Positions 25,521 through 30,369 of a stretch of DNA of 40,242 nucleotides are shown here, one piece after another. Location: contig JAUIBT010000028.1 in NCBI GenBank assembly GCA_030428255.1, forward strand, positions 1 to 40,242. The letters are read 5' to 3'. Positions within the stretch are counted from its first letter, which is position 1; each line of letters starts with the position of its first letter. Both the position numbers and the translations under genes were made by a program. The stretch comes from Alphaproteobacteria bacterium (lineage in GTDB: Bacteria > Pseudomonadota > Alphaproteobacteria > UBA7985 > JAUIBT01). The notes below the pieces were generated by a model. It saw nothing but the letters and a program-made list of their open reading frames with translations, was not told the DNA's origin and ran no database searches.

Positions 25521-25973
25521 CTAGTCGTTGGGTCCCAAATGCTTGTCGAGCATAGCGTCGAGATAGCCCCAAAAGAAGCTCTCGTTCAGGTATCCTTCCA
25601 TGCGAGAGACCTCCGCGCCGTCTACGGCCAAAACGAAACTGGGCGTAAATGCAGTGCCCTTTACCTTGAGGTCGTCTGGTAAGGGCTGATGGATGTCCAC
25701 ATAGCGCAGCGTGGCACGTTGGGCCTCGTCGGACTTGTGAAAGTTGGTGCCCACTTCGTCGCGCCATTGTTCGCAGTAGGCGCAACCGATTTGCTCCATG
25801 ACCAACAGCTCGATGCGTGGTTTCGCTTGATCTGCCAGGCCCAGACCGGGCGGGGCAAGGACGGGCAGGCTTAGGGCGCAAGCAATCACAGCAACCATCG
25901 TTGCTCGGCGATTGCGTGAGGCGGGCCTTGCAGTGGTGCGGGCCAGCCAGGTCGGTGCGGTGATGCTCAGCAT
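25521..25973 (-). CDS. soxS: SoxS-like periplasmic thioredoxin
   Basis: A thioredoxin-fold protein of the SoxS/SoxW group. With the ATG at 25973 it has 150 residues, with a basic leader, a hydrophobic export segment (VAVIACALSLPVLAPPGLG), and the redox pair C64-A-Y-C67 in EQIGCAYCEQW. Further conserved parts are YVDIHQPLP, GTAFTPSFVL (cis-Pro loop) and EGYLNESFFWGYLDAML. SoxS reduces SoxYZ or keeps it active in Paracoccus. ATG 25898 or TTG 26021 are alternative starts. It is transcribed away from soxX across a 398-base gap and converges on mrcA. The SoxR repressor gene often beside it is missing. Confidence 0.82.
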   Translation of the reverse strand: MLSITAPTWLARTTARPASRNRRATMVAVIACALSLPVLAPPGLGLADQAKPRIELLVMEQIGCAYCEQWRDEVGTNFHKSDEAQRATLRYVDIHQPLPDDLKVKGTAFTPSFVLAVDGAEVSRMEGYLNESFFWGYLDAMLDKHLGPND

Positions 25974-26097: not shown

Positions 26098-26113
26098 ATT
26101 CACATTTTTGAAT
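26098..26113. promoter_or_regulatory. Putative sox operator 1 (ATTC-N8-GAAT)
   Basis: ATTCACATTTTTGAAT. It matches ATTC-N8-GAAT, which I recall as the consensus of SqrR, a persulfide-responsive ArsR-family repressor related to SoxR and BigR. The flanking bases extend the palindrome to CATTCA/TGAATG. It lies between the divergent soxS and soxX genes. Confidence 0.65.
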
Positions 26114-26144
26114 GTATCGACAATTGGGCTTGATTTATCATTGT

Positions 26145-26160
26145 ATTCCTATAATCGAAT
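26145..26160. promoter_or_regulatory. Putative sox operator 2, overlapping a -10 box
   Basis: ATTCCTATAATCGAAT, the same ATTC-N8-GAAT pattern, 47 bases from operator 1. Its spacer contains a perfect TATAAT at 26150-26155 on the soxX strand. The best upstream partners, TTGATT at 26130 (14-base spacer) or TTGGGC at 26124 (20), are imperfect. A repressor here would block soxX transcription. Confidence 0.65.
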
Positions 26161-26371
26161 GTGATAACGTTTTCTTGAAAGTTAGCCCTCCTTTTCGCCG
26201 CAGGTCACACCTCTTGTGCATGGCGCTCGTTGAGATGGCTGCGGGGCTTCCGGGGGGAAGTCAGTAAGCGAAATGAGCGGGACGTGGTGGTGCGCCTGAA
26301 TTGGGCGACGCTGACACGAGAACGGGCTGGCACGAATAACGAATGTAACAACGCATGCGGGAGGAGAACGC

Positions 26372-26824
26372 GTGAAAACTCTAATCACAGCGCTGGTGGT
26401 TGCGACGACCTTTGCGGTTTCAGCATCAGCTCAGGACATGGCCTATGTGGTCAATGATGATGACTACACCATTGAAAAGTCGCTTACGGGAGTGCCGGGC
26501 GATGCAGGTGCAGGTCAGGCGGCCTTCGTGGGTCGCAAGAAGGGCAATTGCCTTGCGTGTCATGCGGTTGAGCAGCTCAAGGACTCGCAGCTCTTTCACG
26601 GTGAAGTGGGCCCGGATTTGAGTGATGTTGGCAACTCCTACAGCGCCGAAGAACTGCGTCTGCGCATTGTAGATTATAAGGTCATCAATGACGATGTGAT
26701 CATGCCGGCATTTTTCCGCTCAACTGGCCTGAGCAATGTTGGCAAGAAATTTAAAGATAAGACAATCCTTTCGGCGCAAGAGGTCGAGGACATCATCGCT
26801 TATCTGTTGACTCTCAAGTCGTAA
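26372..26824 (+). CDS. soxX: SoxX, monoheme cytochrome c
   Basis: The small subunit of the SoxXA c-type cytochrome, which oxidatively couples thiosulfate to the SoxY cysteine in the periplasm. The 150-residue protein has a signal peptide (1-20, cleaved after ASA), one heme site C60-L-A-C63-H64, and a probable axial Met111 in VIMPAFF. GPDLSDVGNSY and YLLTLKS are typical of the family. The GTG at 26372 has GGGAGGAG upstream. It is first in the soxXYZAB order, 33 bases before soxY. Confidence 0.94.
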   Translation: MKTLITALVVATTFAVSASAQDMAYVVNDDDYTIEKSLTGVPGDAGAGQAAFVGRKKGNCLACHAVEQLKDSQLFHGEVGPDLSDVGNSYSAEELRLRIVDYKVINDDVIMPAFFRSTGLSNVGKKFKDKTILSAQEVEDIIAYLLTLKS

Positions 26825-26857
26825 CATACGGAAAATATACGAAAAGGTCTAATTGAC

Positions 26858-27310
26858 ATGAACCAAATTACTCTTGTCTCTCGACGCTCCTTCGTTCTGG
26901 GAACCGGCGGTCTGGCGGCTCTGCTGGCTCTGCCGCAGGCGGCGTCCGCAAACGAATGGCAGGCCGCTCTTGAAGGGCTGGTTGGCACGTCATCGCCTGC
27001 TGAAGGTCGCGTGGATTTGGCGATGCCCGAAATCGCGGAAAACGGCAATGTGGTCCCCTTTGATGTGACCGTTGATAGCCCCATGACCGACGCGGACTAC
27101 GTGAAGGCTGTTCACGTTGTAGCCACTGGTAACCCGACCCCAGGCGTGGCCTCCTATATGATGTCGCCCGGTATGGGCGAGGCGACCGTCTCCTCACGCA
27201 TGCGACTGGGCAAGACCCAAGAAGTCATCGCGGTTGCGGAGATGAGCGACGGCTCGGTCTATGGCGTAACTACCACCGTTAAGGTGACCATCGGCGGATG
27301 CGGTGGCTAA
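26858..27310 (+). CDS. soxY: SoxY, sulfur-carrier subunit
   Basis: The periplasmic carrier that holds sulfur intermediates on its C-terminal cysteine. The 150-residue protein has a Tat signal (SRRSFVLGTGG at 8-18, cleavage after ASA about 31) and the swinging-arm end VTIGGCGG with C148. The immunoglobulin-like body has VPFDVTVDSPM and VASYMMSPGMGEA. It is exported with SoxZ, which has no signal of its own. Confidence 0.95.
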   Translation: MNQITLVSRRSFVLGTGGLAALLALPQAASANEWQAALEGLVGTSSPAEGRVDLAMPEIAENGNVVPFDVTVDSPMTDADYVKAVHVVATGNPTPGVASYMMSPGMGEATVSSRMRLGKTQEVIAVAEMSDGSVYGVTTTVKVTIGGCGG

Positions 27311-27340
27311 GGCCGCAGCTCGGGCTGCCTGCAGCGGCCC
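27311..27340 (+). promoter_or_regulatory. Hairpin between soxY and soxZ
   Basis: GGCCGC at 27311-27316 pairs with GCGGCC at 27334-27339, with an alternative GCAGC/GCTGC stem inside. It begins right after the soxY stop. It has no T tract, so it is more likely an mRNA stability or processing element than a terminator. This is an inference from position. Confidence 0.3.
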
Positions 27341-27379
27341 CTGTCGATCAGGTTAGATACGAATACAAGGAAATTCATC

Positions 27380-27703
27380 ATGGCAGCTAAGCCACGCGTA
27401 AAAGCCCCCAAGTCCGCTGCGGCGGGCGAAATTGTGACCATCAAGACCTTGGTGCGTCACGCAATGGAAACCGGTCAGCGCAAGGATGCCGACGGCAACA
27501 AGATCCCACGCGATATCATCCACACCTTCGTTTGCACCGTGAACGGTAAGGAAGTGCTGCGCTCAAACTGGGAGTCCGCCGTTTCGGCCAACCCTTACCT
27601 GGCATTCCCGCTGAAGATCGACGAAACCTCAGAGGTGGTGTTCAGCTGGACCGATGATCAGGGTGAAACCGTTTCCACCAAGAAAACTATCACAGTGGCC
27701 TAA
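27380..27703 (+). CDS. soxZ: SoxZ, SoxY partner subunit
   Basis: A 107-residue protein that forms the SoxYZ heterodimer and is carried to the periplasm with SoxY. It has the SoxZ blocks IVTIKTLVRHAMETGQRKD, IPRDIIHTFVCTVNG, and the C-terminal beta strand EVVFSWTDDQGETVSTKK. No signal peptide is seen, as expected. AAGGAA lies eight bases before the ATG. soxA follows 57 bases after the stop. Confidence 0.95.
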   Translation: MAAKPRVKAPKSAAAGEIVTIKTLVRHAMETGQRKDADGNKIPRDIIHTFVCTVNGKEVLRSNWESAVSANPYLAFPLKIDETSEVVFSWTDDQGETVSTKKTITVA

Positions 27704-27760
27704 GCCATGGGAGGGGAGGGCGCGGTCCCTCTTCTTCGCACAACACGGGAGGGAGAAACC

Positions 27761-28594
27761 ATGAAACTCTTTTTGGTTGGTCTGGCTGCATTAGGATTGA
27801 GCCTGGGTGCAGCACAGGCGCAAGACATAGATTGGACCAAGGTCACTTTGGAAGGCTTCGAAGTTCCTTTGGCCTACGAAAATGAAGACGGGGACCTTAT
27901 TCGCTCGGGCTTTACGTTCCGGACCCCCGGAACCCAGGCGATGCAGGAAGACGACTTCGCAAACCCTGCGTTTTGGCGCGTCGATGAGGGCGAGATCGCT
28001 TGGTCTACGCCCGAAGGCAGCGAGGGCAAATCCTGCGCGGACTGTCACGGCGATGCAGCCGAGTCCATGGCCACTGTCGGCACGGAGTATCCCAAGGTAG
28101 ACGCCGAGTCCGGCGAGTTGCTGGCCTTGGAGCACCGCATCAACAAGTGTCGTACGGAAAACATGGGTGCGGAGGCCTATAAGTGGGAATCGCAGGGCAT
28201 GCTGACTATGACCGTATATGTGCGGCATCAGTCGCGCGGTAAGCCGGTCAATGTCGCCGTTGACGGCCCCGCCGCGCCCTTCTTTGAAGAAGGCAAGGCA
28301 CTGTACAACAAGCGTGTGGGTCAGTTGGATATGGCGTGCAAGCATTGCCACGAAGACTACTATGGCAACTACATTCGCGCTGACTTCCTGAGCCAGGGTC
28401 AATCCAATGGCTTCCCGACCTATCGCCAGAAATGGGGCAAGGTTGGCTCGATCCATCGGCGGATACGTGGGTGTATGGGAAATATCCGAGGCGCCAAGTA
28501 CCCCTATGGCTCGCACGAGAACACGGTACTTGAGCTCTACATCGCACATCGCGGCAAAGGCCTGCCGGTCGAGACGCCCGCTGTGCGCAACTAA
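27761..28594 (+). CDS. soxA: SoxA, diheme cytochrome c
   Basis: The catalytic subunit of SoxXA. The 277-residue protein has a signal peptide (1-20, AQA cut) and two heme sites, C92-A-D-C95-H96 and C193-K-H-C196-H197. C238 in RIRGCMG sits where the persulfide-modified cysteine heme ligand is found in characterised SoxA, and C130 is also conserved. It is the diheme form; some SoxA proteins have lost the first heme. The ATG at 27761 has GGGAGGGAG upstream; the frame to 27707 is open but lacks a site. A terminator follows after 22 bases. Confidence 0.95.
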   Translation: MKLFLVGLAALGLSLGAAQAQDIDWTKVTLEGFEVPLAYENEDGDLIRSGFTFRTPGTQAMQEDDFANPAFWRVDEGEIAWSTPEGSEGKSCADCHGDAAESMATVGTEYPKVDAESGELLALEHRINKCRTENMGAEAYKWESQGMLTMTVYVRHQSRGKPVNVAVDGPAAPFFEEGKALYNKRVGQLDMACKHCHEDYYGNYIRADFLSQGQSNGFPTYRQKWGKVGSIHRRIRGCMGNIRGAKYPYGSHENTVLELYIAHRGKGLPVETPAVRN

Positions 28595-28616
28595 GGTGCA
28601 AAGCCGAACCTAAACG

Positions 28617-28646
28617 GGCGGGGCACTTCATAGCCCCGCCTTTTTT
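28617..28646 (+). terminator. Intrinsic terminator between soxA and soxB
   Basis: GGCGGGGC at 28617-28624 pairs perfectly with GCCCCGCC at 28633-28640 around an eight-base loop, followed at once by six T residues. This is the best plus-strand intrinsic terminator in the window, yet it lies inside the sox gene string. It should cut most transcription from the soxX promoter before soxB. Confidence 0.9.
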
Positions 28647-28662
28647 CTCCCAATATTTGAAC

Positions 28663-28678
28663 ATTCGGAAAACGGAAT
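28663..28678. promoter_or_regulatory. Putative sox operator 3 in front of soxB
   Basis: ATTCGGAAAACGGAAT, a third exact ATTC-N8-GAAT match, nine bases before the soxB ATG and 17 after the terminator. TTGAAC at 28657 and TATACC at 28678 flank or overlap it. The spacing (15) is short and the start would nearly coincide with the ATG, so promoter placement is uncertain. Confidence 0.6.
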
Positions 28679-28686
28679 ATACCACG

Positions 28687-30369
28687 ATGTTTGAACGCCG
28701 AGAGTTTATGCAGCTCGCCCTGGCAACCGCCGCTATGACCGGCCTGCCCAGCCTCAGCCGAGCTGCTGCTCACCAGTCCATTACCCAAGATGATATTTTG
28801 TCGTTCGAGGCCAAGGGCCAAGTGACGCTGATGAATCTGACGGACATTCACGCTCAAATCGTGCCGGTATATTTCCGTGAACCGTCGATCAATCTGGGGG
28901 TCGGCCAGGTCTTCGGTCTGCCGCCCCACTTGACCGGCGATTCCTTCCTGTCGCACTTCGGCATCAAGGCCAAAACCCCGCAGGCCTACATGCTGACCAG
29001 CGCTGATTTCGAAGCCATGGCGCGCAGCTATGGCCGGGTTGGCGGGCTCGATCGCATTGCAACTCTGGTTAAGGCCATTCGTGCCGAGCGCGGCTCTGAG
29101 CGCTGCTTGCTGCTGGATGGCGGCGACACCTGGCACGGCTCCTTCACTGCGTTGGAAACGCGCGGTCAGGACATGGTGGATTTGATGAACCTGTTGGGCG
29201 TCGATGCCATGACCGGGCACTGGGAATTTACGTTGGGCGACGAACGAGTTGAGGAACTGGTCGAGGCCTTCAACGGGACGTTTTTGGCTCAAAACGTGCG
29301 TGACAATGAGTGGGACGAGGAGGTGTTTGAGCACACCGCCTTTTACGAAAAGGGCGGCGTGAAGATCGCGGTGATCGGCCAGGCCTTCCCCTACACGCCG
29401 GTCGCCAACCCGCGCTATATGATCCCGGGCTGGTCCTTCGGCATTCGTGAGGACCTGGTACAAGAGCGCATTGATGCCGCGCGCGCCGAGGGTGCCGAGC
29501 TGGTGGTGCTGCTCTCGCACAACGGCTTTGACGTGGATCGCAAGCTGGCTGGTCGCTTGAGTGGACTGGACGTGCTGATGACCGGCCACACCCATGATGC
29601 CATTCCCCAGCCCGAGCAAATCGGCGATACCCTGATGATCGCTTCAGGGTCGAACGGCAAATTCCTATCGCGCCTTGATGTGAAGGTCGAAGGCGGGCGG
29701 ATGGTCGATTATTCCTATAAGCTCATGCCAATCTTGAGCGATGTCATCGCGCCGGATCCGCAGATGGCCGCCGCCGTGGCTCAGGTGCGCGCACCCCACG
29801 CAGGCATGCTGGCGACGCCTTTGGCAACCACCCAGTCGCTGCTCTACCGCCGTGGCAACTTCAACGGCACTTTTGACGACTTGCTGTGTCAAGGCATGCT
29901 GGAGCAGCGCGATGCAGAGATCGCGCTGTCGCCAGGCTTCCGCTGGGGCACCAGTCTGTTGCCGGGTATGGAGATCACAAACGACGATCTGTTGAACCAG
30001 ACTGCTATGACCTATCCTGCCGTCTATCGCTTGGAGTTTACCGGCCAGCAGCTCAAAGACATCTTCGAAGATGTGGCGGACAACCTGTTCAACCCAGACC
30101 CCTACTTCCAGCAGGGCGGCGACATGGTGCGAGTCGGCGGCATGGGCTATACCATTGATGTCAACAAGACCATCGGCAACCGGATTACTCACATGACCTT
30201 AAGCGACGGTTCAGCCGTTGATCCAAGCCGGTCCTATGTCGTTGCGGGCTGGGCATCGGTGAATGAGGGCACAGAAGGTCCGGCGATCTGGGACTTGATG
30301 CGCGATTATTTCGCCGATCACCGACAGGTGGAAATTCCGGTCAACGAGTCGGTCAGGGTCATCACCTAA
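28687..30369 (+). CDS. soxB: SoxB, sulfate thiol hydrolase
   Basis: A dimanganese periplasmic hydrolase that releases sulfate from SoxY-bound S-sulfonate. The 560-residue protein has a Tat-type leader (ERREFMQLALATAA, cleavage near SRAAA), metal-site motifs D53-I-H55 in NLTDIHAQ, LLLDGGDTWHGS, the SoxB hallmark TGHWEFTLG, VVLLSHNGFDVD and MTGHTHDAIPQP, and a 5'-nucleotidase C-terminal domain. An in-frame TTG at 28657 lies upstream, but the ATG at 28687 gives a normal Tat leader. The ribosome site is weak (CGGA about 11 bases away). Confidence 0.95.
   Translation: MFERREFMQLALATAAMTGLPSLSRAAAHQSITQDDILSFEAKGQVTLMNLTDIHAQIVPVYFREPSINLGVGQVFGLPPHLTGDSFLSHFGIKAKTPQAYMLTSADFEAMARSYGRVGGLDRIATLVKAIRAERGSERCLLLDGGDTWHGSFTALETRGQDMVDLMNLLGVDAMTGHWEFTLGDERVEELVEAFNGTFLAQNVRDNEWDEEVFEHTAFYEKGGVKIAVIGQAFPYTPVANPRYMIPGWSFGIREDLVQERIDAARAEGAELVVLLSHNGFDVDRKLAGRLSGLDVLMTGHTHDAIPQPEQIGDTLMIASGSNGKFLSRLDVKVEGGRMVDYSYKLMPILSDVIAPDPQMAAAVAQVRAPHAGMLATPLATTQSLLYRRGNFNGTFDDLLCQGMLEQRDAEIALSPGFRWGTSLLPGMEITNDDLLNQTAMTYPAVYRLEFTGQQLKDIFEDVADNLFNPDPYFQQGGDMVRVGGMGYTIDVNKTIGNRITHMTLSDGSAVDPSRSYVVAGWASVNEGTEGPAIWDLMRDYFADHRQVEIPVNESVRVIT

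Follow-up and report, generated by a model that had tools for sequence, protein, structure and literature searches.

The thiosulfate-oxidation (sox) gene cluster in the 40,242-nucleotide stretch analyzed here (the window) carries a repeated palindrome, ATTC-N8-GAAT, and raises the question of which protein might recognize it and which genes it might control. An exact scan of the full 40-kb window retrieved exactly three matches, in agreement with the original prediction, which had listed these three sites and no other. Two of them lie in the gap between soxS and soxX, i.e., predicted operator 1 (ATTCACATTTTTGAAT, 26098..26113) and predicted operator 2 (ATTCCTATAATCGAAT, 26145..26160); the third, predicted operator 3 (ATTCGGAAAACGGAAT, 28663..28678), lies between soxA and soxB.

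The gene soxS (25521..25973, minus strand), coding for a periplasmic thioredoxin, is divergent from soxX and was recognized through a phmmer match (E 1.1e-17) to the PDB entries 3d4t/3dml, which we take to be Paracoccus SoxS. On the plus strand it is followed by soxX (26372..26824), soxY (26858..27310), soxZ (27380..27703), soxA (27761..28594), and soxB (28687..30369). The products of soxX, soxA, and soxB pass the NCBIfam equivalog models TIGR04485, TIGR04484, and TIGR04486, respectively, and those of soxY and soxZ match Pfam PF13501 and PF08770; together with the PDB match, these assignments bear out the gene names of the original prediction.

Palindromes of this kind could arise by chance in A/T-rich intergenic DNA. 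Dinucleotide shuffles of the window contained 0.44 sites on average and at least three in 0 out of 100 cases; block shuffles of the soxS/soxX and soxA/soxB gaps (350 + 92 bp) gave an expectation of 0.006 sites, and three sites in 0 out of 200,000. One-mismatch versions of the pattern showed no excess in the window (8 versus 10.2 expected). Two congeners, whose SoxB is 90% identical, were each searched independently, and all three window sites are exact in both of them: operator 1 has the same place and half-sites, operator 2 is kept, the two are separated by 47 bp in each of the three species, and operator 3 maintains its position, ending 9 bp upstream of the soxB ATG, with a changed spacer. 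This conservation refutes chance for the three window sites.

The scan was then extended to the whole genome (3.5 Mb, 58 contigs), which harbors 25 exact sites versus 5 for a control pattern, i.e., ATTC-N8-GAAT read backwards. The claim that the palindromes are confined to the sox cluster holds therefore within the 40-kb window, but not genome-wide. A simple gene finder based on codon usage, applied to the stretches around the sites, assigns 10 of them to coding DNA and classes 15 as intergenic. Beyond the window, intergenic sites were found 78 bp upstream of soxC, 5' of pmpA, 5' of a persulfide dioxygenase gene, at two SoxT/TsuA-type (soxT-type) transporter genes, in the petA/trmL gap, and at an M20 amidohydrolase gene. 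These sites and the three of the window make up the ten out of 15 that have a counterpart at the equivalent place in at least one of the two congeners, nine being common to all three species (including the soxC site, always at the same distance). The remaining one, a transporter/cytochrome c site (L020), is matched in congener G002 alone. The matches in the genome are hence not few, yet the ten recurring in the congeners are located mainly (8/10) at sulfur genes.

In the aligned sites the half-sites are identical at 152 out of 152 positions, a figure due in part to construction, since the regions were paired for both having exact sites; identity drops to 70% in the spacers and to 56% in the outer flanks. 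The ten sites yield an extended consensus of roughly RYATTC-N8-GAATRT. As to recurrence of place, checked with the single backwards pattern, none of the 21 control sites of the three genomes shares its surroundings with another. On sequence grounds, the palindromes mark a dispersed putative regulon, wider than sox.

Some of the non-sox sites deserve a separate description. The one in the gap between petA (Rieske protein) and trmL (L017:3039) ends at the trmL start codon, about 220 bp 5' of petA, and is kept in both congeners; no ATTC-N8-GAAT was found 5' of petA in 19 other relatives, so that it is taken as genus-specific. The M20 amidohydrolase site (L026:3029), which adjoins the gene for the ATPase inhibitor zeta subunit, is kept in the three species, where ACATTC...GAATAT stays and the spacer and downstream flank are unrelated. 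Moreover, both congeners (L107:2709 and L121:2817) possess an exact site about 100 bp 5' of the NAD(P) transhydrogenase gene pntA, which is absent 5' of pntA in the genome of the window.

A wider comparison was possible since a SoxB scan of genome contigs retrieved 80 loci. A dyad test was carried out on the intergenic DNA of 44 sox loci from other species (L125–L169 minus the congener L144), mostly alphaproteobacterial, by comparing 64 A/T-matched words at 9 spacers (576 combinations). ATTC-N8-GAAT was the top dyad with 19 hits, usually just 5' of soxX; the next best had 12, and the mean of the words at the N8 spacer was 1.5. When whole loci including coding DNA were considered, several other words at other spacers outnumbered it. 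An exact site no more than 350 bp from soxX occurs in 10 of the 42 scorable, more distant loci, often where an ArsR gene resides in the same cluster; in several genomes of the same class harboring a SoxR homologue (L125, L085, and L087), the exact site is absent 5' of soxX. Even though 15 of the 25 genomic sites fall in genes or at places not common to the congeners, the probability that the palindromes are fortuitous appears negligible: shuffles, the reversed control pattern (whose sites never recur), the conservation of position and half-sites, and the rank of this dyad in independent sox loci led us to reject chance.

Other arrangements were observed in these loci. SoxR homologues lacking both sensor cysteines (replaced by Tyr and Arg) are encoded in the sox clusters L153, L157, L158, L160, L161, L164, L165, L168, and L169, belonging to Roseinatronobacter, Natronohydrobacter, Roseibaca, and Rhodobacteraceae; L165, L168, and L169 keep the exact operator 5' of soxX despite this. 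In L131, L137, and L141 (Rhodospirillaceae and Rhodospirillales MAGs), the ArsR protein of the sox locus differs in its recognition helix (e.g., PANMSQHLSWLK), and the exact site was not found in the stretch scanned.

Concerning the candidate regulator, the genome harbors a sole close homologue of the SoxR/SqrR/BigR type of ArsR proteins, encoded on another contig (C10, 154984-155403, minus strand). This gene is located beside soxC and divergent from it, with an operator in between, an arrangement shared by all three species. Its product (the C10 protein) possesses the ArsR-type winged helix (PF01022, 45.9 bits, cut-off 22), and SqrR and BigR are among its PDB matches. Its recognition helix, RQSLVSQHLTRLR, is similar to that of SoxR proteins encoded within sox clusters, and in the phylogenetic tree it clusters with same-order homologues (support 94/92).

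The original prediction had called for an ArsR protein with two conserved cysteines. The first is present: Cys68 (RLLILC) aligns with the conserved cysteine of helix alpha2 and is also found in both congeners. The canonical second position, in alpha5, is instead occupied by Leu134, and by Met or Leu in the congeners, so that the second cysteine stands only in a shifted form. Cys130 and Cys137, four residues before and three after position 134, are conserved in all three species; given this spacing, they would fall on about the same helix face, if the helix runs on. Among about 50 homologues, this arrangement was seen in this genus only. Since the canonical position is Leu or Met, the C10 protein fails one defining feature of SoxR/SqrR/BigR proteins, and it may still work like one.

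This displacement, together with eight other HTH_5 matches in the genome, could be taken to indicate that the palindromes belong to a different regulator, either a further ArsR protein or some unrelated factor whose palindrome is similar, and that the C10 protein has other targets. We consider this unlikely: the other HTH_5 proteins are distant (the next-best match of the C10 protein in the genome has an E-value of about 1e-3) and several of them are fused to other domains, whereas an operator separates the C10 gene from soxC in all three species. Furthermore, the SqrR group has this consensus, and in the same-order genome G006 the canonical relative is encoded in a locus with two ATTC-N8-GAAT sites and pmpAB. 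Binding of the C10 protein to the sites is thus the reading that we retain as probable.

The position of the sites relative to expression signals bears on how the bound protein would act. As the original prediction had noticed, one site of the soxS/soxX gap spans a TATAAT (26150..26155, plus strand), a possible -10 box in the soxX direction, seen in the sequence inside operator 2; it is TATAAA in one congener, no good -35 box was found for it, and the promoter scan did not report it as a promoter. The only promoter-like site that the scan retrieved in this gap is the pair TTATCA-N16-TACAAT (26140..26167, minus strand; 9/12 matches, 0.2 expected), directed towards soxS, with operator 2 lying between and over its boxes. 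Scans of both gaps did not reveal any consensus promoter before soxX or soxB.

An intrinsic terminator (28616..28641, plus strand) was detected between soxA and operator 3, and its stem and T-run are kept in both congeners; the terminator is thus conserved in three species, although soxXYZAB is usually drawn as a single unit. Because operator 3 follows this conserved terminator and abuts the soxB start codon (it ends 9 nt 5' of it), soxB is probably under a control of its own, through either promoter occlusion or a roadblock. A leaderless soxB transcript from TTGAAC-N15-TATACC was also considered and dropped: the -10 would be just 4 nt 5' of the ATG, the -35 is missing in one congener, and the scan gave no promoter.

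For the relative HlyU, a role as transcriptional activator has been described (PMC10509353), and operator 1 lies about 260 bp 5' of the soxX start, where no good promoter was found; the C10 protein might then bind and activate, or antirepress, at some sites, rather than being a simple repressor. Such a behavior seems improbable to us, as SoxR, SqrR, and BigR repress, and operator 2, over promoter-like elements, and operator 3, abutting the soxB start, occupy the usual positions of repressor sites. By analogy with these proteins, the C10 protein most likely represses, with sulfane sulfur relieving the repression.

Altogether, we assign a probability of roughly 0.87 to the reading, based on sequence comparison, that the three palindromes are operators of the SoxR/SqrR/BigR-like repressor encoded on C10, released by sulfane sulfur and serving a regulon that extends beyond sox. 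A dimer of this protein would bind the ATTC half-sites, covering the promoter elements of the soxS/soxX gap and blocking the start of soxB. Sulfane sulfur, the presumed signal by analogy with known sensors, would bridge the cysteines of the repressor, which would leave the DNA, so that sox would be switched on by oxidizable sulfur compounds. Through the same operator, sox would be coordinated with soxCD, pmpAB, the persulfide dioxygenase gene, and the genes of the two SoxT-type sulfur transporters; petABC or trmL and the M20 amidohydrolase gene would probably join them in this genus. The original prediction that sox is controlled by a repressor encoded elsewhere in the genome is supported, and none of the points that could have spoken against it (sites scattered at genes unrelated to sulfur, lack of a homologue, lack of conservation in relatives) turned out to do so.

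A further, more tentative possibility is that the second reactive cysteine has moved along alpha5, to Cys130 and/or Cys137, giving a three-cysteine sensor, maybe with another sulfur bridging, and that the regulon has spread to the bc1 genes and the M20 amidohydrolase gene, which would tie respiration to sulfur sensing. If the petABC site is real, the availability of sulfur would set the expression of the bc1 complex in these bacteria. In any case, what was a bare pattern is now a concrete predicted regulon, for which an uncultured alphaproteobacterial genus has one candidate regulator. The genome of the window and the two congeners offer three natural sequences for studying how large a displacement of its second cysteine a persulfide sensor tolerates before it no longer senses.

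The comparison with known systems places the putative regulator close to several of them. It shares with SqrR of Rhodobacter capsulatus the operator word and spacing, the ATTC-N8-GAAT consensus (PMC9774250) having been given correctly in the original prediction, as well as the ArsR fold, a similar recognition helix, and the alpha2 cysteine; it differs in the shifted second cysteine and in its targets, which here center on sox, soxC, SoxT, and pdo. The SoxR of Hyphomicrobium represses the sox and SoxT1A genes (PMC10451225, PMC12423496, PMC11582611) and loses DNA binding once sulfur bridges its two conserved cysteines (PMC10451225, PMC12423496), and SoxT1B passes the signal (PMC11582611). The control of sox and soxT-type genes predicted here, where the putative operators precede both, would resemble that exerted by SoxR of Hyphomicrobium denitrificans, Paracoccus pantotrophus, and Pseudaminobacter salicylatoxidans. 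SoxR-type homologues sit inside the sox clusters of relatives, whereas the regulator gene is here apart from soxXYZAB, beside soxC; soxB has its own predicted operator, and the position of the second sensor cysteine has shifted. As in the case of BigR of Xylella, Agrobacterium, and Acinetobacter, the predicted operator is found at pmpAB-like genes and at the gene for a persulfide dioxygenase (half of Blh); unlike BigR, the regulator is encoded outside the operon in question, and its score against the NCBIfam BigR model NF040642 (66.1 bits) is under the cut-off of 155. Escherichia coli YgaV is its best PDB sequence match (E 9.6e-18), but the targets of YgaV are anaerobic respiration genes, different from those proposed here. 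The kind of system is therefore known; new are the displacement of the cysteine, a predicted operator for soxB alone, and the petA/trmL and M20 sites, which are specific to the genus.
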